Positions 5,033-56,439 of a DNA stretch of 64,000 nt are shown here, piece by piece; position 1 is the first letter of the stretch; each line of letters starts with the position of its first letter. Position numbers and translations under genes: made by a program. The notes beneath the pieces are model-generated. The model did no database searches, was not told the origin of the DNA, and saw only the letters and a program-made list of their open reading frames with translations. Source of the stretch: Sphaerolaimus hirsutus (taxonomy: Eukaryota; Nematoda; Chromadorea; Monhysterida; Sphaerolaimidae); NCBI GenBank assembly GCA_964036195.1, contig OZ038460.1:6513504-6577503 (forward strand), read 5' to 3'.

Positions 5033-7188
5033 ATGAACTACCTACTGGTCTTGGTTGCTTTTGCTTCTTGTACAGGCTATGCCGTTAAAGGTAACGTATC
5101 ATTACAATACCGTAAATGCTCTAATAATACGACAGGTCTCCAATAATACGACATCTCCAATAGTGCGACAGGTTTGGGCACGTTGTGTGAAAATAATCCG
5201 ACACTCTCCAATAATGCGACACTCTTCAATAATGCGACACCTGAGAAATAAAAAGAAAAAGCGCCGTAACGATGTGGCAATTTGCGGAAGTCGCGGATTC
5301 GGCGCTTTTGGACAAAGCGGCGGCTGGCGGCAGTTCACAAGAGTCGCTCGGCAGTTCGCAAGGGCGCCAGCCGCCTCACAACCGCCACTATTCACTGGCT
5401 GAGAAGTTGTTGATTCGACGTAAACAATAATGCGACACTCTCTAATAATGCGACATCTCCAATAGTACGACACCTAAAAATGTGCTGAAAAAAATAGTAC
5501 GACTGTCGTATTATTAGAGCATTTACGGTATTAGAGTTCCCACTAGGGATGGAAAAACCGGGTTTTTTCAACACTGGTGATCTCTAGTCTGCACATCGTC
5601 TTAATTATCATTTTTTAACACAGCTGTATCAAAAAACTTCACTGATGTGCGACACCCAAAATACCCGGACCGCTATTTGAACCACTGCTATGGGAATTCG
5701 GTAGAACCATGCTACAAGCCAGTTGCTGACTGGTTTTGCCAGAATAATGGCTATCAGTTTGCAGAAAGTTTGTTGGTTTGTCCAGATTCCAGTATTCGGC
5801 GGCACAGGGTTATTTCTACAGGCTTTAAGAAAGACTGCTTGCGATCGAAACTTGCGTCGTGGGACGGGGGCACGCTGGATTGCGGTGGCAATTACTGCGG
5901 TACCCTTTGCTGGGTCAAGTGCTCCAATGGGACCGGTACCGATACCGGTGCTGGGCCAGAAACTGGTATGTTCCTCATCCTAACTAGGTACCTACTTCCG
6001 GTTTGGCAGAATGATGTAGCAGAACATGGGAATAGAAATTTGTCAAACATTGTTGCTAACTGTTTTGGAATAGACTTCTCGACAAATTCGTGTCGTAAAC
6101 TCAATAGTGTGCATTATACCTAACATACATACGAAAAGAGAATATATTTACCTGTGATGTTTTAAAATGCGGACAAAATTTGTCTAAATCCTTTTGAAGA
6201 ATATTAACGTCGATAACAGTAGCCCCACTACACACATTACCCATATACCTAGTCGATAACCACAATTTCCAAAAGTGATGAATCTGTTTAAAACACATTT
6301 CAATTTACTGGTATGAGGAGTGTGTCAACTACTGTTGAAAATCAGGAAACTCTGATAAATCGAGATGTGGTAGATTCGAATGTGTTTGAAACAGACTTTG
6401 TGTTTATCAAGATCTGAAATTTTGCCCATAAACTAAATATTCTAAAACTGTTTATGTCAAAATTGAACTCAACTCGCATTGTGTCATTTTTTCACCTCAA
6501 TTCACCTTAAAATACAACAGGCATCTTCACTGACGTGCGTCACCCGGACAGCCCTGACAGGCATCTGGGCCAGGTGCCAATCCCAGACCCTGTAAAAAGC
6601 CCTGTAAAATTTCAAATGTCATGCAAAGTGTCAAAAAGCATGGAAAATGCCCTGCAAAATAGCAACTCGGTTACCATATTTCGAGGTATTTTCCATGCCT
6701 TTTGACACTTTGCATGACATTTGACATTTTACAGGGTCTGGGAGTGCCCCCAGTCCTACGCTCTAGATACGCAGCCGTCGGGCCAGCTCATAGCTGACTG
6801 GTTTTGCCAGAAGAATGGCTTCAACTATGCCATTGGTTAGTGCGCAAGTAGTGATGTAAAAGCGCCATTGTTATGCGCTTTTGGCGCTTGGCGTGCCCTG
6901 GCGCTGTTGGCGCTTGACGCCGGACGTCGAAAAACCGCAGTGGCGTTTGTCCCGCTTTGCGCCAATGTCTTGGCGCTTTTTACACCACTATGCATAAGTT
7001 AAATTCATGAATGATTTTTACATCTTTTGGAAACCTCTCAACGCAACCTCCCTTCAGCCTTCAAGGCGCCATGCTATTCGACAAAACTTCGCTCTATGAA
7101 TGGCAAAGTGACCGATTGCCCCCCTGACAAGTGTGACGTTTTCTGCGCCATCACCTGCGGCAGGTGCGGCGCTGCGGCCAGAAAATAA
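5033..7188 (+). CDS. Secreted cysteine-rich two-repeat protein, copy 1 (transposon inside exon 4)
   Basis: Exons: 5033-5090, 5624-5965 (or 5624-5791 plus 5822-5965), 6521-6573, 6754-6835 and 7058-7188. Exon 1 encodes a signal peptide starting MNYLLVLVAFASCTG. Repeat 1 has FTDVRHP..PDRYLNHCYGNS, then PVADWFCQNNGY and a Cys-rich tail CGGNYCGTLCWVKCSNG. Repeat 2 has IFTDVRHPDSPDR, then ADWFCQKNGF and DCPPDKCDVFCAITCGRCG, and ends AAARK. The pattern P-x-AD-x-FC-x2-xGY resembles small Cys-rich domains I remember from plants and bacteria; this is unverified and the function is unknown. The frame is intact only if 6574-6753, a 180-bp family B element, is removed as an intron. The intron between exons 2 and 3 has shrunk to 30 in-frame bases and may be read as ten residues, giving 221 aa instead of 211. 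AATAAA overlaps the stop codon. Confidence 0.7.
5108..5530. mobile_element. MITE with TACCGTA ends, word AATAATGCGACA
   Basis: It lies in intron 1 of gene copy 1. The ends are TACCGTAAATGCTCTAAT and ATTAGAGCATTTACGGTA. Both flanks are filled with the word AATAATGCGACA or near variants, about ten times in all. The middle (about 5280-5400) is GC-richer. A TA target site is likely. Confidence 0.8.
6574..6753 (+). mobile_element. Family B element inserted in a coding exon and forming a predicted intron (introner)
   Basis: The insert starts GTGCCAATCCCAGACCCTGT and ends ACAGGGTCTGGGAGTGCCCC followed by CAG, so the ends are inverted repeats. It splits exon 4 of gene copy 1 after CTGGGCCAG and before TCCTACGC. 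Copies 2 and 3 read CTGGACCAGTCCTACGC with no insert. It gives a donor CAG|GTGCCA and an acceptor CCCCCAG|TCC, phase 0, and removal restores the frame exactly. CAG on both sides may be the target duplication. A competing acceptor, TTTTACAG at 6727-6734, would add 19 bases and shift the frame. Confidence 0.85.
6849..6990. mobile_element. hAT-like element, family D, in intron 4 of gene copy 1
   Basis: Ends are TAGTGATGTAAAAGCGCC and GGCGCTTTTTACACCACTA. The flanks are TGCGCAAG and TGCATAAG, an 8-bp duplication with one difference. The inside is made of GGCGCTT words. The same insertion is present in copies 2 and 3 (41109-42348 and 46075-46894). Confidence 0.85.
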
Positions 7189-19907: not shown

Positions 19908-20400
19908 TTCCCACCATGTATGCATTTGCCATTTCCCACTGCATTTTACATGACTTTTGACACTTTGCAGGACATTTGACATTTTACAGGGCAGTTGACA
20001 GTATTTTCCAGTACACCGTGTATGTATTTGCCATTTCCCACTGCATTTTACATGACTTTTGAGACCTTGCAGGACATTTGACACTTTACAGGGCAGTTTA
20101 CAATGTTTTGCTGTTCCCCTTGTATGTGTATGCCATTTCACGCTGTATTTTACATGACTTTTGACACTTTGCAGGACAATTAACACTTTGCAGACCAGTT
20201 TACAAACTTCAGAAGCGCCCCTCATATTTGCTTGGCATTTCACATAACTTTTTACATGACTTTTGACACTTTGCATGACATTTGACACATTACACAACAG
20301 TTTACAACGTTTGGGAGCACCCCTTGTAAATGTTTGCCTTTTTCATGGCATTTTACATGACTTTTGACACTTTGCATGATATTTGACACTTCACAGGCTG
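19908..20400. repeat. Tandem array with family B vocabulary
   Basis: About five units of about 105 bp. Each contains GCATTTTACATGACTTTTGA, then CACTTTGCAGGACATTTGAC and a variable spacer. The minus-strand open frame across it is only the repeat translated. Single units resemble one arm of the element inserted in gene copy 1. Confidence 0.8.
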
Positions 20401-21113
20401 GCAGAATTGGTGTCTGTGTAGAAATTTACACTTAAAATTACCGAAATACACTTAAAATCCTTCAGTGTGAAATTTTGATCGTCATAGCCCCCAAGAGAAA
20501 ACGTTGCAACCAAAAAACTCACTGGAGGCCAGTTATCCATCACGATCTCGAAATGAGACATCCAACAAATAAAAGCGCCAACAAGACAACTGATGACATT
20601 GCGTGCACGCGTCGCAACCTTGCATTCACGCGTCGCAAACTTGAGTTCATCATATTTACCACTGATTTTCTTTTTTGCATTCTCCAGAAAAGATTTGGAT
20701 ACATGATAATATTCACTCGCATGGCATTGTGCCAAAGAGGTAAAACACGTTAGGGACGTTTGACCCAGAACTGCATTGATGCATGTGCTGACGATAAGCG
20801 AGGTTGAGCTCTTTGTGTGAGCGGGGCCACCCATTGGGGGTGTAAAAGGTTGCAGATATTTCATGTTGAACTGTTCTCGTAACAGTTCAGGACATCTGGA
20901 CAACCTTATGTCGATGACATATGCCACTCGTTGGCTAGTCGAATCGAGTTTTTGGCACGATGCCAAGCGAACAAAAAACGCCTCCGGAAGCGCTACGCGG
21001 CATCCTCGGGTCATTAATTGCTCATTGTTTGACCATTGCGGTCCGAGCAACAGCTCGAACACCAAACAACCCACCAAAAGCCCGTATAACGGTCGCCGCA
21101 GTCTGGAAACAGT
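20391..21113 (-). CDS. Unrecognised long ORF, possible C-terminal exon
   Basis: An open minus-strand frame of about 240 codons runs from a good acceptor (a T-rich tract then CTTCAAG, at 21113) to a stop at 20391. This is long for AT-rich DNA. Hydrophobic stretches include GLLVGCLVFELLLG near the start, LIVSTCINAVLGQTSLTCF in the middle and NVISCLVGAFICWMSHFEIV towards the end, so a membrane protein is possible. The segment ATRARNVISCLVGAFICW loosely recalls a helix of a seven-helix receptor, but I would not name it. The last part overlaps the family B array. An LDLa exon lies just upstream on the same strand. Confidence 0.4.
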   Translation of the reverse strand, partial: TVSRLRRPLYGLLVGCLVFELLLGPQWSNNEQLMTRGCRVALPEAFFVRLASCQKLDSTSQRVAYVIDIRLSRCPELLREQFNMKYLQPFTPPMGGPAHTKSSTSLIVSTCINAVLGQTSLTCFTSLAQCHASEYYHVSKSFLENAKKKISGKYDELKFATRECKVATRARNVISCLVGAFICWMSHFEIVMDNWPPVSFLVATFSLGGYDDQNFTLKDFKCISVILSVNFYTDTNSASL

Positions 21114-24170: not shown

Positions 24171-24290
24171 GAGTTTCCAAATTAGGGACTGAGTTTATGG
24201 GAGTTTCCAAATTAGGGGCTGAGTCTATGGGAGTTTCCAAATTAGGGGCTGAGTTTACAGGAGTTTCCAAACTAGGGGCTGTGTTTACAG
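24150..24290. repeat. Short tandem repeat GAGTTT..GGGAGTTTCCAAATTAGGGGCT
   Basis: About four units of about 30 bp with TTATGGGAGTTTCCAAATTA, bridging the satellite and the G-rich minisatellite. Confidence 0.75.
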
Positions 24291-24840
24291 GATTTAGAGG
24301 GGGTCCCCATGGGGTGCCATTTTTGGGGGGTCTCCAGGGGGTGCCATTTTTTGGAGGCACATATGGGGGTGCCATTTCAAGGGGGTCCCCATGGGATGCC
24401 ATTTTTTGGGTGGTCCCCAGCAGTGCCGTTTTTTGTTGGTCCTTAGGGGGGTGCTATATTTTTTTGTGGGGGGGGGGGTCCATAGGGGGTGCCATTTTTT
24501 TTTTTTGGGGGGGGGGTCCCCAGGGGGTGCCATTTTTGGAGAGTCCCCAGGGGGAGCCAACTTTGGGTGGGTCCCCAGGGGGTGCCATTTTTGTGGCGGT
24601 TCCTAGGGGGTGCCATGTTTGGGGGGTCCCCAGGGGGTGCCATTTTTGGGGGGTCCCTAGGGGGTGCTATTTTTGGGGGGTCCCTAAGGGGTGCTATTTT
24701 TTGGTGGTCCTCAGGGGGTGCCATATTTGTGGGGCCCTAGGGGGTCCCATTTTTGGGCGGTTCCCAGGGGGTGCCACTTTTGGGGGGTTCCCTGGGTGAT
24801 GCCATTTGGAGGGGGGTCCCCACTGGGGTGTCAGTTTTTG
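24290..24840. repeat. G-rich minisatellite
   Basis: About 17 units of about 30-35 bp with the core GGTCCCCAGGGGGTGCCATT followed by a G run. G runs of up to nine recur on the plus strand. The 234-codon ORF here is just this repeat translated. Confidence 0.9.
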
Positions 24841-24867
24841 CAAGCCTCTGAGTAGTGGGTACCTATA

Positions 24868-27604: not shown

Positions 27605-28503
27605 CAGAGTTGGAAAAACGTATTTACGTTTACCCGAAATACCCGGTTATTCGGGTATTTATACTTACGTTTACATTTACGTTTTCCAAAAATACCATTA
27701 CGTTTTGTTACGTTTTCCTGACCAAAATACCCGGGTACTAGGGAAAACGTAAAAAACTTGTGATTGTTCACATGTGCACATGTTCAAATGGGGTGCACCA
27801 ACTGCAGCTGCATAAACGTAACATGTATACATAAAAAATGTAGTGTATGAAAAAAGTGACTGCACGGTTGCACTTATGTACACATGGAATACAGGGTACA
27901 TATTCATAAATGTGTTCAAAAGCTGAACACAAAAACCTTTTTGTTTGTTTCTGGAGCGTTGCGTTGATAAGTTTTTTGTGATGAATTCCAACAACGCCAC
28001 TAGCAACAACTGTGAGTAGTACATGTTCCGAAACTGGCAGGGTGAGTGCAAGCTCTGGTGCCAATCCCAGACTCTGTAGGATGCCCTGTAAAATGTAAAA
28101 TTTCATGCAAATGTCAAAACCCAGCAAAATGGCAAAGATTTGCCACCTTCCAGGGCACTTTGCAAGACTTTAGGCATTTTGCATGCCATTTGACATTTTA
28201 CAAGGCATTTTACAGGGTCTGGGACTCCCCCAGAATCACCAGCGTTAGTTGGATTTAGCCACACTTACTACAGAAAGTGGTGCAGATGGAATGATTGACC
28301 CACCTGATGGTGAAAATAATGGTATATTCCAAAGCACAATGGCAAATATGGTGTGTAAAAATTTTTACGTTTACGTTTTTTTTTTACGTATTCCTTGGTA
28401 TTTTAAAAATACCTTACTTTTTAGTATTTATACTTTTTATTTGGAAAAGGTATTTACGTTTACGTTTACGTTTTCCAAAAATACCAGTATTTTCACAACT
28501 CTG
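27605..28503. mobile_element. hAT-like element, family A (ACGTAA/ACGTTT word)
   Basis: Ends are CAGAGTTGGAAAAACGT and AGTATTTTCACAACTCTG, flanked by a perfect 8-bp duplication, CGGTGGCC. The word is TTTACGT at both ends. A family B element is nested at 28058-28233. Confidence 0.9.
28058..28233 (+). mobile_element. Family B element with GT..AG ends
   Basis: Starts GTGCCAATCCCAGACTCTGT and ends GGGTCTGGGACTCCCCCAG. Length is 176 bp, close to the 180 bp of the copy inside the gene exon. It lies in a transposon, not in a gene. Confidence 0.8.
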
Positions 28504-39021: not shown

Positions 39022-42000
39022 ATGAAGCTGCTGCTTGTGCTGCTTGTTGGCTTGCTCGGTGTTGTATGTAAGTCAGGTGCCAGTTCCGCTACAGGCAAAG
39101 TACAGTTGCAAAAGTTATAAATAAAGTAAGATAATAAATGGCAAGTTAAGAGTTAGGTAAGTAAACTTAAAAGTTAAAAGTTAAGTTCTAGCGATCTGCC
39201 TCCATATTTATCAACAATAAGATATCTCATAAAAAATGGCTAACGCCAACAAAAAGTGGACACTGCACAAATGTATTGCAGTCAGGTGTGCTAGTGTGCG
39301 CAGAACCATTGCCTTAAAAAGCGTTTTTCAAACACAAGGCGCCTCAAAAAATTTCACCGATGTGCGGCACCCAAACGACCCGACTCGCTACGTGAACCAC
39401 TGCTTTGGGAATTCTAAACAGCCGTGCTACAAACCAGTTGCCGATTGGTTCTGCCAGAGTAATGGCTACGAGTTTGCAGAAAGTTTGTTGGTTTGCCCAA
39501 ATTTGTTTGGTTCGGCTTTCAGTGTTCTTTCTCAGCCCGGAAACGGGTGGTGTACTCTAGGATCGGTTCCACCTAGGGTGTCAAATTTCCGTTTTCTGCA
39601 GGCAAAGTTTTTCCGTTTTCCGCCTGCTGAAATTTTTTCCGTTCCGTTTTCCAGCCACTTCTTTTCCGTTTCTGTTTTTCTGGCTCATTTTCCGTTTTCC
39701 GGCTAAATTTTAGCTTTTCCGCCTTTTTTCCATTTTCCGCCTTAATTTTCCATTTTTCTACCTCATTTTACCTTTTCCTGGCTCAACTTTCGGTTTTCTG
39801 TTCCAGCGAAACCGGTGAACATTCATGCAGATTGTCAATGATGTAAATTTTTTCTGTTTCCAGCAAAATTTCTGCAAATTTTTTCCACTTCCAGCTAAAT
39901 TTATGCAAATTTTACCGTTTTTCCAGTAAAATTTCAGCAAATTTTTCCGTTTCCATGCATTGGATGTTTACTTTTTATTTGTAATTTGTCTAAAAAAAAT
40001 TGCGTTGTGGACGTATTTTGCTTTTTTTTCTTCCGAAGTTTGAACTGACCGCGTGAAGTGATCTGTCATGACTCTGATAAAGACCCACGCATTTTAGTTT
40101 TCACGCTGATGCATATGCATTTACGTCTGAGTAATGCCCGCACTTTCTCAAAAAAAATTTAAAATAGAAGAAGGTAGAAATAAAATTTCGCGTGCAAATG
40201 ATAACATGTTTGTTTTCTGAAACATTTTTTGAAACAATCCTATTTTATCAATGATGACGTCACGAAGGAGTGTTTCCTTCAGAAAAATGCATAGCATAGG
40301 AGTATTACTTGACAAGCTGCGGGAATTGCTCAAAGTGATTAGAATCAATACCTGGAAAATAGTACCTACCTATTTAGGTATTTTAAAAAGTATCAAATGC
40401 ACGTATTTCTACAGGCTTCGAAAAAAACTGTAAACGATCTAAAATTGCGTCATGGGACGGGGGCAAGCTGGATTGCGGTGGCAACTGCGGTACACTTTGC
40501 TGGGTCAAGTGCTCCAATGGGACCGGTGCCGGTGTCGCTGCTGGGCCAGAAACTGGTGGGCATCCTAAATAGTTCCAGTTTGGCAGATTAATGTGGCATA
40601 ACACGATGGCACATTGTCAAACATTTTTGTTAACTGTTTTGGCAGGAATTTCCTGACAAATTTCCGTCGTAAACTGAATAGTGGGCGGAGCCACATTATA
40701 AACACCTATTAAAATTAAAATACCTATAGGTACATTATTTATGTCTAAATTGTCAACTTCTACAAGGAGTGTGTCAACTAATGTCAATGAAGATCGCGAA
40801 ACTCTGGTAAATTCAAATGTGTTTGATACCGACTGACCAATTTCTGAAATTTCGCCCATAAACTACCCTAAAACTGTTTATTTCAAAATTAAACTCGTAT
40901 TAGACTCAAAACTCGTATGCTGTTGTAAATTTTGAACTAATTCACCTTTAAACACAACAGGCATCTTCACCGACGTGCGTCACCCGGACAGCCCTGACAG
41001 GAATCTGGACCAGTCCTACGCGCCTGGTACGCAACCCTCGGGCCAACTCGTAGCTGACTGGTTTTGCCAGAAGAACGGCTTCAACTATGCCATTTGTTAG
41101 TGCATAGGTAGTGGTGTATAAGCGCCATGGCGCTTCTGGCGCTTGGCGACATTCTGCCGTGGCGCTATTGGCGCTTGGCGCTAAGGCTTGGAACAACGCC
41201 ACGGCGTTTTCTGTGGTTGGCGCCATTTTTGCATGGCGCCGGGAACGGAACGCCTGCTCTGGCTATTGGCGCAAGTGCTAGCGCCAAAGCAAAAAGCGCC
41301 ATGGCGCTATTCGCGCTTGGCGCTATTTTTCTCTAGCGCCGTTGTTGTTAAAACGTTTTACGTTTACTCTATAACTACGTATACTCGTGTACTGCGTAAA
41401 TACGTTTACGCTTCCTCGAGAAAAAAATACCGGTACTCACTTACTCGCGTACTGTTTAAAAATACGCGAGTACATGAAACGTATTTTTAGGGGACAAAAA
41501 ATGTCAGTTTTCCAAACAGAAAAACAAGAAAAACATAGGACAATATCTTAAGGCCCTGTTTACACGGATTTTTTGTGACGACTCAACAACAATAAAATGT
41601 TCAATAAGTTGAGTAAAAAGGTTCCATATTCATTAGAAAAAGTGGTCAAGTATACCTTCTACCTAAGCGAATATGCAGGCCAAATTGCAGACTCGTGCAT
41701 GTAGCTCAAGATTTATAACGTTCGAAAAAAGTTTGCTATTGTCGCTGGCTGTCGGAGACAGTCCGACAACTGTCCGACAAATTCAAAAGTTTACAAATGC
41801 CTTTAAATTTTGAGCTACAAGCACGATTGTGCAATTTGACATGCATATTCGCCTAGGTAAGATGTATAATTGATCACTTTTTCTCATAAATATGGAACAC
41901 TTTTACTCAACTTATTGAACGTTTTATTTTTGTCGAGTCGTCACAAAAAATCCGTGTAAACGGGGTCTAAGAAATACTTATCAGGAGAGAAAAACACATC

Positions 42001-44131: not shown

Positions 44132-47088
44132 ATGAACTACCTACTGTGCCTGGTTGCTTTGGCTTCCTGTACAGGCCATGCCCTTGCAGGTAACGCGTTA
44201 CAAAAATATAAGAGTTCACACATTGCGGCCGCGCACACCGGTACACCACCGAAATTTGGGCAACTCTTGAGTCTGTTTTGATCACATTTGAGTTGACCAG
44301 AATGAATGTTTTTGATCGTAGTTGATAGTACTAGTTAATAGTAGTTGACTGACTCCGTATTCTGGTAAACTAAAATATGTTCACAACCGATTTATGAGTT
44401 TACCTAATTGCACTGGTGTGCTAGTGTGCGCAGAACCATTGCCTTAAAAAGCGTTTTTCAAACACAAGGCGCTTCGAAAAATTTCACCGATGTGCGGCAC
44501 CCAAACGACCCGACTCGCTACGTGAACCACTGCTTTGGGAATTCTAAACAGCCGTGCTACAAACCAGTTGCCGATTGGTTCTGCCAGAGTAATGGCTACG
44601 AGTTCGCAGAAAGTTTGTTGGTTTGCCCAAATTTGTCTGGTTCGGCTGTCCCGCGGAGCGCTCTTCCTTAGCCCGGAAACTGACGGCGTACCGTACGATC
44701 GGTTCCACCTAGAGTGTCAAATTTCCGTTTTCCGCAGGCAAATGTTTTTCCGTTTTCCGGCTGCTGAAATTTTTTTTCCGTTCCGTTTTCCGGCTCATTT
44801 TCCGTTTTCCGGCTAAATTTTCAACTTGACGCCCTAGTTCCACCTTGGCACTAGCGCAAGTGCACATCTACACCAAAACTAAGAATTGAAAATAAATTCT
44901 GGAAACGGCTTTTCTTTGGATGTTTACTTTTTATTTGTAATTTGTCTAAAAAAAGTTTGCGTTGTGGACGTATTTTGCTTTTTTTTCTTCCGAAGTTTGA
45001 ACTGACCGCGTGAAGTGATCTGTCATGACTCTGATAAAGACTCACGCATTTTAGTTTTCGCGCTGATGCATATGTATTTACGTCTGGGTTATGCCCGCAC
45101 TTTCTCAAAAAAATTTAAAATAGAATTTAAAATAGAAATTTAAGAAGTTAGTAATAGAATTTCGCGTGCAAATGATGATGTCTGTTTTCTGAAAAAAAAT
45201 TTAAACAATCCTATTTTATCAATGATGACGTCATGATGGAGTGTTTCCTTCAGAAAAATGCATAGCATAGGAGTATTACTTGACAGGCTGCGGGAATTGC
45301 TCAAAGTGATTAGAATCAATACCTGGAAAATAGTAAATACCTATTTAGGTAGGTATTTTGAAAGGTATCAAATGCACGTATTTCTACAGGCTTCGAAAAA
45401 AACTGTAAACGATCTAAAATTGCGTCATGGGACGGGGGCAAGCTGGATTGCGGTGGCAACTGCGGTACACTTTGCTGGGTCAAGTGCTCCAATGGGACCG
45501 GTGCCGGTGTCGCTGCTGGGCCAGAAACTGGTGGGCATCCTAAATAGTTCCAGTGTGGCAGATTAATGTGGCATCACACGATGGCACATTGTCAAACATT
45601 TTTGCTAACTGTTTTGGCAGGAATTTCCTGACAAATTTCCGTCGTAAACTGAATAGTGGGCGGAGCCACATTATAAATACCTATTTTAAAAAAATATACA
45701 TTATTTATGTCTAAATTGTCAACTTCTACAAGGAGTGTGTCAACTTATGTCAATGAAGATCGCGAAACTCTGGTAAATTCAAATGTGTTTGATACCGACT
45801 GACCAATTTCTGAAATTTCGCCCATAAACTACCCTAAAACTGTTTATTTCAAAATTAGACTCGTATTAGACTGAAAACGCGTATGCTGTCGTAAATTTTC
45901 ACCTAATTCACCTTAAAACACAACAGGCATCTTCACCGACGTGCGTCACCCGGACAGCCCTGACAGGAATCTGGACCAGTCCTACGCGCCTGGTGTGCAA
46001 CCCTCGGGCCAACTCGTAGCTGACTGGTTTTGCCAGAAGAACGGCTTCAACTATGCCATTTGTTAGTGCAAAGGTAGTGGGAGTGGTGTAAAAGCGCCAT
46101 GGCGCTTCTGGCGCTTGGCGACATTCTGCCGTGGCGCTATTGGCGCTTGGCGCTGAGGTTTGGAACAACGCCACGGCGTTTTCTGTGGTTGGCGCCATTT
46201 TTGCATGGCGCCGGGAATGGAACGCCTGCTCTGGCTATTGGCGGAAGTGCTAGTGCCAAAGCAAAAAGCGCCATGGCGCTATTCGCGCTTGGCGCTATTT
46301 TCCTCTAGCGCCATTGTTGTTAAAACGTATTTACGTTTACTCTATAAATACGTATACTCGAGTACTGCGTAAATACGTTTAAATACCGGTACTCACTTAC
46401 TCGCGTACTGTTTGAAAATACGCGAGTACATGAAACGTATTTTTAAAGGACAAAAAATGTCATTTTTCAAAACAGAAAAATAAGAAAAACATAAGACAAT
46501 TTCTTAAGAAATACTTATCAGGAGAGAAAAACACATCTTTGATGTACACCAGAGTAAAAATTCAAAAAAACGGACTTTTTGTGGGAAAAATACACAATTT
46601 TAAGTTTTCTGTGAGACGAAATACCCGTTTTTACATTTTTTACAGAAAAATATCACGTTTTTACGTTTTCTCTGAGAAAAAGTATTACACTCACGTTTTA
46701 CACAGTGTAAAGTATTTAAAAAATACTTTACGTTTTCTGTACCCAGGGGTCAGTAAAAGAAAAATATTTTACGTTTACGTTTACTTTTAAAAATGATCAG
46801 TACTTTTAACAACTCTGCTGGCGCTGGGAGTTCGAAAACATGCCGTGGCGCTTTTGGCGCTTGGCGCCAAAGTCCTGGCCCTTTTACATCACTATGCACA
46901 AATCTAATTCAAGTGTCACATTTTTCGGGGATCTTACAATGCAACCTCCCTTTTCAGCCTTCAAGGCGCCATGCTACTCGACCAAAATTCGCTCTATGAA
47001 TGGCAAGGTGACCGATTGCCCCCCTGACAAGTGCGGCGTTTTCTGCGAAATCACCTGCGGCAGGTGCGGCGCCGCGGCTAGAAAATAA
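44132..47088 (+). CDS. Secreted cysteine-rich two-repeat protein, copy 3
   Basis: Exons: 44132-44189, 44469-44639, 45390-45530, 45927-46061 and 46958-47088, all joined in phase 1, giving 211 residues. The signal peptide is MNYLLCLVALASCTGHALA. Repeat 1 and repeat 2 are nearly the same as in copy 2; the last exon reads STKIRSMNGKVTDCPPDKCG and ends AAARK. About 16 cysteines are present, nine in repeat 1 and seven in repeat 2. The frame and splice sites are clean, and a TATA box precedes it, so this is the best candidate for an active copy. Introns 2 and 4 carry hAT-like insertions, at sites shared with the other copies. Function unknown; likely secreted. Confidence 0.8.
44710..44836. mobile_element. 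hAT-like element in intron 2 of copy 3 (TTTTCCG word)
   Basis: Ends are TAGAGTGTCAAATTTCCG and TTCAACTTGACGCCCTA. A perfect 8-bp duplication, GTTCCACC, flanks it. TTTTCCGTTTTCCGGC words lie inside. Confidence 0.85.
46075..46894. mobile_element. Family D hAT-like element in intron 4 of copy 3
   Basis: The left end is TAGTGGGAGTGGTGTAAAAG and the right end TTTTACATCACTA. GGCGCTT words fill it, with family A-prime nested at 46312-46817. Same site as in copies 1 and 2. Confidence 0.8.
46312..46817. mobile_element. Family A-prime hAT-like element nested in family D, copy 3
   Basis: Left end CATTGTTGTTAAAACG, right end TTTTAACAACTCTG. Orthologous to 41340-42281 but without the Harbinger-like MITE. 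Confidence 0.75.
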
Positions 47089-56246: not shown

Positions 56247-56439
56247 CTGGGGCACTCCCAAACATTGTAAAATACCCTGTAAAACATTTAATGTAACGCA
56301 AATTGTAAAATATCATGTAAAATGCCATGTAAAATGGCAGACAAAGTAAACGGAAACGAAGTCTACCATTTTCCGGGAGATGACATTTGCATGACATTTG
56401 ACATTTTACAGGGCACTTCACAAAGTCTGGGACTGGCAC
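56247..56439 (-). mobile_element. Family B element with GT..AG ends (minus strand)
   Basis: On the minus strand it begins GTGCCAGTCCCAGACTTTGT and ends TTTGGGAGTGCCCCAG. About 193 bp. It has the same end structure as the insert at 6574-6753. It lies upstream of the Ly6-type exons. Confidence 0.75.

Follow-up and report, generated by a model that had tools for sequence, protein, structure and literature searches.

The window, a stretch of 64,000 nucleotides from the nematode Sphaerolaimus hirsutus, contains three copies of one gene, all on the forward strand. Copy 1 was examined from position 5600 on. Its upstream coding part (5632-5964) aligns with the other copies and specifies a cysteine-rich domain, and its last coding part (7057-7188) ends in the stop codon TAA. 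The initial annotation had described the exons of copy 1 outside exon 4 as open, and this is borne out for 5632-5964 and 7057-7185. Exon 4 itself is in two parts, 6521-6573 and 6754-6835, the second followed by the donor GTTAGT; both align with copies 2 and 3. Between them lie 180 extra bases (6574-6753), which on reading the sequence begin GTGCCA and end CCCCCAG. The corresponding exons of copy 2 (40957-41094) and copy 3 (45923-46060) are unbroken in the alignment, as had been claimed. By sequence reading, the introns adjoining exon 4 look like GT-AG introns. Elsewhere in copy 1, about 48 bp at 5776-5823 can be read through in frame, whereas in copies 2 and 3 about 0.8-0.9 kb separates the same coding parts (39491-40416). 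A protein search with one exon as query found no homologue of the host gene, and the two pieces searched against Pfam matched no family.

The empty sites show how the insert is built. Both paralogous exons contain CTGGACCAGTCC, with one CCAG only, and the order across the junctions in copy 1 is CTGGGCCAG / GTGCC...GTGCCCC / CAG / TCC. Because of this order, the 180 bases resolve into a 177-bp miniature inverted-repeat element, or MITE (6574-6750, forward strand, tips GTGCCAAT and AGTGCCCC), and a 3-bp target duplication: the CAG at 6571-6573, which forms the final three bases of the upstream exon part, is repeated at 6751-6753. The element would thus be the body of a putative intron with its own donor GT, and the right-hand CAG would hold the 3' splice site. 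In the initial annotation the MITE carried both splice sites; the element does contribute the GT, but the AG belongs to the duplicated target. The insert had also been described as 180 bases with inverted-repeat ends. The insert is there, but the description was too modest about its symmetry, since the family consensus is palindromic throughout except for its tips and loop, and the element itself is 177 bp.

When 6574-6753 are deleted, the copy 1 exon aligns without gaps to copies 2 and 3, with 89% and 87% amino-acid identity over 46 residues, which upholds the claim that removing exactly GT..AG restores the frame and the conserved residues. For the window copy, therefore, copies 2 and 3 preserve the formerly continuous exon with its empty site. 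Left unspliced, the insert would place two stops in frame. These stops would also be expected if an ordinary MITE had simply broken copy 1, its GT and AG ends being an accident of the CAG target and the gene being dead. The restored frame is no argument against such an accident, because it follows automatically for any insertion with a target duplication once the element and one copy of the target are removed.

The element belongs to a large family, which we call family B. Its left end together with CAG occurs at 1,925 places in the genome (348 Mb, 762 contigs) at no more than one mismatch, a count that takes in CTG variants, CTG for CAG being the one mismatch; the reversed pattern occurs at none. 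The left-end matches are not due to chance. From loci L001-L078 we took 103 copies (96 without repeated loci), and the 80 that were 170-200 bp long with clear ends gave a consensus of 189 nt. This consensus is a near-perfect palindrome from end to end, apart from a 3-nt loop and roughly the outermost 8 bases; folded as RNA, it forms arms of about 90 nt around the loop at -163.8 kcal/mol. These 80 copies lie 1.6 to 14% from it; for the window copy the figure is 6.2%. The two arms are distinguished by their outer tips alone (GTGCCAAT versus GGGGCACT), and the tips therefore set the polarity of the family. Family B is short, has inverted repeats and is present in many copies, as a MITE should be, and its palindrome and CWG duplications are signs of DNA transposition. 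The window holds two further full-length copies, one at 28058-28231 on the forward strand (79% identical to the consensus) and an older one at 56249-56439 on the reverse strand (74%). It also holds a tandem array of roughly 102-bp units, each resembling one arm of the palindrome (19914-20408), and a tandem repeat of about 27-28 bp that is GGGGGTGCCATTTTTGGGG-like (24278-24848).

The flanking triplets of the 103 copies were CAG/CAG in 37, CTG/CTG in 18, CTG/CAG in 15 and CAG/CTG in 2, with other triplets in 31; the CWG pattern seen on both sides of the window copy is thus found in 72. A C precedes 28 of the 37 CAG/CAG sites, and a G mostly follows the CTG/CTG sites (15 of 18). Because CCAG and CTGG are one site on two strands, the element seems to enter CCAG in either orientation.

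The gene copies also allow the insertion to be placed in time. Copy 1 differs from copies 2 and 3 by a dS of 0.38-0.40, and the latter two, close sisters, differ from each other by 0.067. With a distance of 6.2% from the consensus of its family, the insertion appears to postdate the divergence of the copies, in line with the proposal that it arose after the gene duplicated. This comparison also bears on the opposite history, in which copy 1 kept an old intron that copies 2 and 3 lost. A single loss would be enough, given how close those two copies are. Nevertheless, an element this near its consensus does not suit a split with a dS of about 0.4, and the flanking CAG/CAG direct repeat fits a recent insertion; we regard the loss of an old intron as highly improbable. 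Over 546 aligned coding nucleotides, which draw on 5632-5964 and 7057-7188, dN/dS between copy 1 and copies 2 and 3 is 0.20 and 0.21. For the interrupted exon alone the values are 0.17 and 0.25, from few changes, and in one short piece (A2b, 69 nt) replacement changes outnumber silent ones. Copy 1 thus appears to be a constrained gene. Because much of the divergence must predate the insertion, these ratios speak of constraint rather than of present function, and continued function is not implied.

We looked for the same arrangement at other family B copies. The element and its right triplet were deleted, the flanks were joined, and a Pfam match was counted if it ran across the junction with E < 1e-4. 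Besides the window copy, 36 sense copies were tested, many of them picked by eye; a set chosen by rule comprised the 20 longest frames, and 6 of the eye-picked copies were also in it. In the antisense orientation, 16 of the 20 longest frames were tested and 4 were left out. A domain continued across the join in 11 of the 36 sense copies (a partly hand-picked sample), in 5 of the 20 chosen by rule and in 1 of the 16 antisense copies. The sense crossings, 11 copies at 10 loci with E from 8e-33 to 1.3e-5, interrupt Guanylate_cyc (L041), Sulfate_transp of the SLC26 type (L047), p450 twice within one locus (L048), Glyco_hydro_1 (L040), 7tm_1 at two loci (L067+1440 and L011, the latter an older copy), Amidase_2 (L063), Trypsin (L068), SNF of the SLC6 type (L045) and a WD40-type propeller that falls below the curated cut-offs (L008). 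The P450 join is gapless against human CYP2C8, and the SLC6 join against the taurine transporter; in the amidase, compared with AmpDh2, the junction is gapless with gaps elsewhere, and in the glycosidase, compared with the nearest solved chain, single-residue gaps lie on either side of the junction. The other 25 sense joins, and the window's own, gave no Pfam match across the junction with E below 1e-4. At five loci a Pfam match did not reach the junction (L050, L022, L017, L043 and L059), and weak crossings at L024 (E 0.016), L015 (E 0.0035) and L069 (E 0.034) were not counted.

Several of these loci have features of their own. The P450 locus (G000:C16:21011700-21014800) has a third family B copy near the two that split the p450 domain. 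L040 and L058, both on G000:C9, are near-identical stretches of glycosidase family 1, with two family B copies each. The L067 stretch recurs at L075, an unplaced second copy in which the insertion is present too. The genes of this genome include rhodopsin-type receptors, SLC6 transporters, an ASK kinase and a paired box gene, which point to an animal host.

Open reading frames at the joins gave a second measure, one that does not depend on which domains are chosen. At least 40 codons were open on both sides of the exact join in 30 of 92 copies; when flanks were joined to mismatched partners, 200 shuffles gave a mean of 17.3 and a maximum of 28. Slipping the join by one or two bases left 18 and 15 such frames, and antisense joins gave 17. 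At 30 codons the count was 44, compared with 33.3 for mismatched partners, and at 20 codons the signal was weaker: 62 of the 92 copies qualified where mismatched partners averaged 54.8, and 3 of the 200 shuffles matched or exceeded that count of 62. The excess of 30 over 17.3 may point to enrichment in genes, but the sample is ranked by similarity. Amounting to about 13 copies, this excess suggests a location in long exons for at least one in seven of the copies sampled, a rough figure and not a genome-wide rate.

Because domains run across the joins and open frames are in excess at exactly those joins, we conclude, on evidence of homology, that family B is probably an introner family, that is, a family of transposons that makes introns. 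Its copies share sequence up to both borders at unrelated gene positions, whose status as introns rests on homology. The initial annotation had supposed both that family B makes introns in this genome and that copies which never coincide with introns elsewhere would speak against this. The 11 sense copies within Pfam domains favor the first supposition, and the second situation does not hold, since conserved domains are split at the ends of the element. The same observations weigh against an ordinary MITE that happened to break copy 1. Identical ends recur inside other conserved domains, twice within the single P450 locus; to explain why open frames are overrepresented at the exact join, many genes would have to have been killed recently; and the exons of copy 1 are open where checked, with a dN/dS of 0.20, though much of that divergence predates the insertion. 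We therefore consider a broken, dead copy 1 unlikely. Not all exonic copies of the family fit the pattern: the one antisense crossing (L018, G000:C13:6180299) splits the ASK_PH domain of an ASK kinase, and its outer ends are GG..AG.

In summary, the 180-base insert is very probably an introner, a MITE that landed in the CAG of exon 4 of copy 1 and would be removed from the RNA as an intron. What the DNA itself displays is a palindromic element of a large family, a duplicated CAG, empty sites in the paralogues, a restored frame and a like arrangement in other conserved genes.

The splice signals of the insert are modest. The window donor GTGCCA is weak, which would also suit a broken gene, and the tract preceding the AG is only 44% pyrimidine, with TTTTACAG 19 nt upstream. 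Scored with a weight matrix, the outer GT is the best donor near the exon border, and a GT in the loop at +112 scores higher. Two inner donors, both GTAAAA, lie at +18 and +30; as multiples of three, these offsets leave the window copy in frame and free of stops, and would add 6 and 10 residues. Splicing could therefore pair the inner donor 18 nt inside the element (CCT^GTAAAA) with the outer AG. The +18 site also keeps the frame in several other copies, and its use would account for the ASK_PH copy in antisense orientation, which has GG at its outer end. By this matrix, however, the outer donor scores better at CAG sites, and six extra residues within P450, SLC6 or receptor domains would probably be costly, so that we think use of the inner donor quite unlikely.

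A further question concerns the right-hand border. About half of the targets are CTG, and about half of the copies would therefore end in TG. An AG end is present in the window copy and in 8 of the 11 sense copies within conserved domains (CAG/CAG in four, CTG/CAG in four), so that GT-AG does not describe the whole class; the remaining three, L063, L067+1440 and L068, are CTG/CTG. For L063 we found no frame-keeping GT..AG pair within the range tried. Use of the GT..AG pairs at L067+1440 would shorten the protein by two residues or lengthen it by three or nine. Six pairs at L068 keep the length in threes, and our script marked all six as containing a stop; they could still serve, because that stop is found at the far edge of the left-hand stretch, perhaps outside the exon. 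The TG ends may be spliced, splicing may use other sites, or the genes may be damaged or polymorphic. It is conceivable, though we hold it only tentatively, that a palindromic introner makes true GT-TG introns at CTG targets, the hairpin replacing recognition of the AG, and that selection later turns some TG ends into AG.

The frequencies of the two triplets bear on this idea. Genome-wide, CAG is found at 1,277 of 2,161 right ends versus 1,038 of 1,950 left ends (chi-square p 0.00015). This excess is compatible with selection for AG, but some of the ends belong to other elements that have similar tips. On contig C1, most left ends among the matches listed had no exact right end nearby. Pairs with exact ends 100 to 210 bp apart among those matches, read by eye with right CAG ends covered to 29.0 Mb and left ones to 32.1 Mb, comprised 10 CAG/CAG, 11 CTG/CTG, 0 CTG/CAG and 1 CAG/CTG; two CTG/CAG pairs, also among the matches listed, were 250 and 307 bp apart. 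The preponderance of CTG/CAG over CAG/CTG in the 103 copies is a doubtful sign of selection for AG, because one search query itself had CTG and CAG flanks. Without repeated loci the numbers are 13 versus 2, made up of 4 versus 0 from that query, 5 versus 1 from the other search and 4 versus 1 from bystander copies. The mending of TG ends by a T-to-A change is only suggestive.

These observations lead us to propose the following mechanism. A transposase from an autonomous relative would cut the CWG site. The left tip of the element may then provide the 5' splice site GT, beside a duplicated CAG that makes a good exon end, and the second CAG would provide the AG of the 3' splice site. Once transcribed, the palindrome could form a hairpin, its arms about 90 nt long in the consensus, that brings the two ends together and may offset weak splice signals. 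Because the element is a near-perfect palindrome with polarity only in its outer 8 or so bases, exact GT..AG removal would work in one orientation. At a CTG target (CTG is the complement of CAG), insertion would leave TG as the 3' end; such a copy would then need a T-to-A change or an unusual TG acceptor, or else would damage the gene.

To our knowledge, reports of fresh intron gain in animals are few. The size of the family, the youth of some copies, the empty site in the paralogues and the conservation of the host genes together offer a way to see how a transposon becomes an intron. The CAG and CTG targets amount to a built-in experiment, offering AG or TG 3' ends in about equal numbers, which bears on what new introns need in order to be spliced and on whether bad acceptors are mended. 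Family B likewise bears on whether a hairpin can aid a weak intron.

Related systems are known. In the extracts we draw on, Gozashti et al. (2022; PMC9860276) report that similar introns spread mostly by DNA transposition, that many of the families have target duplications or inverted repeats, and that among the animals and land plants surveyed introners occurred in two groups only, both of them animals. The Chrysochromulina family described there resembles family B in bringing its own 5' splice site and taking the 3' site from the target duplication; as excerpted, it has 4-bp duplications and no inverted repeats, whereas family B has 3-bp CWG duplications, a full-length palindrome and an animal host. 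The introner elements of Amoebophrya (PMC7789003), in the passages available, likewise have border direct repeats and inverted repeats that could form a hairpin joining the exon borders, and many have non-canonical ends; their inverted repeats are 8-20 nt, with none found to be family-specific, in contrast to the one family with arms of about 90 nt seen here. The internally symmetrical (stw)introns of the Hypoxylaceae (PMC8469720) share the symmetry and the possible double-stranded RNA, but according to the excerpt they lack flanking duplications, hence its authors excluded DNA transposition; the CWG duplications of family B are clear. In the tunicate Fritillaria borealis (PMC13326754), an animal genome with many non GT/AG introns, the part of the text at hand gives fewer than 10% of introns as GT/AG and suggests that divergent splice sites may stem from introner transposons whose own splice signals are weak, whereas here the neighbors of exon 4 look like GT-AG introns and non-AG ends are a guess for the CTG copies. 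Human TG 3' splice sites are, in the extract of PMC2374985, alternative only and never the sole site of an intron; in family B the TG would be the sole site. A literature search for MITE-made introns with target duplications had as its match among the papers listed one on a small LTR retrotransposon of grasses. As far as the same extracts go, each part of our proposal has a precedent among described introners (PMC9860276): movement by DNA transposition, duplicated targets, inverted repeats, a 5' splice site supplied by the element and a 3' one supplied by the duplication. Overall, family B appears to be a new introner family; a near-perfect palindrome and TG ends would set it apart from these systems, and of the two it is the palindrome that we see in its copies.
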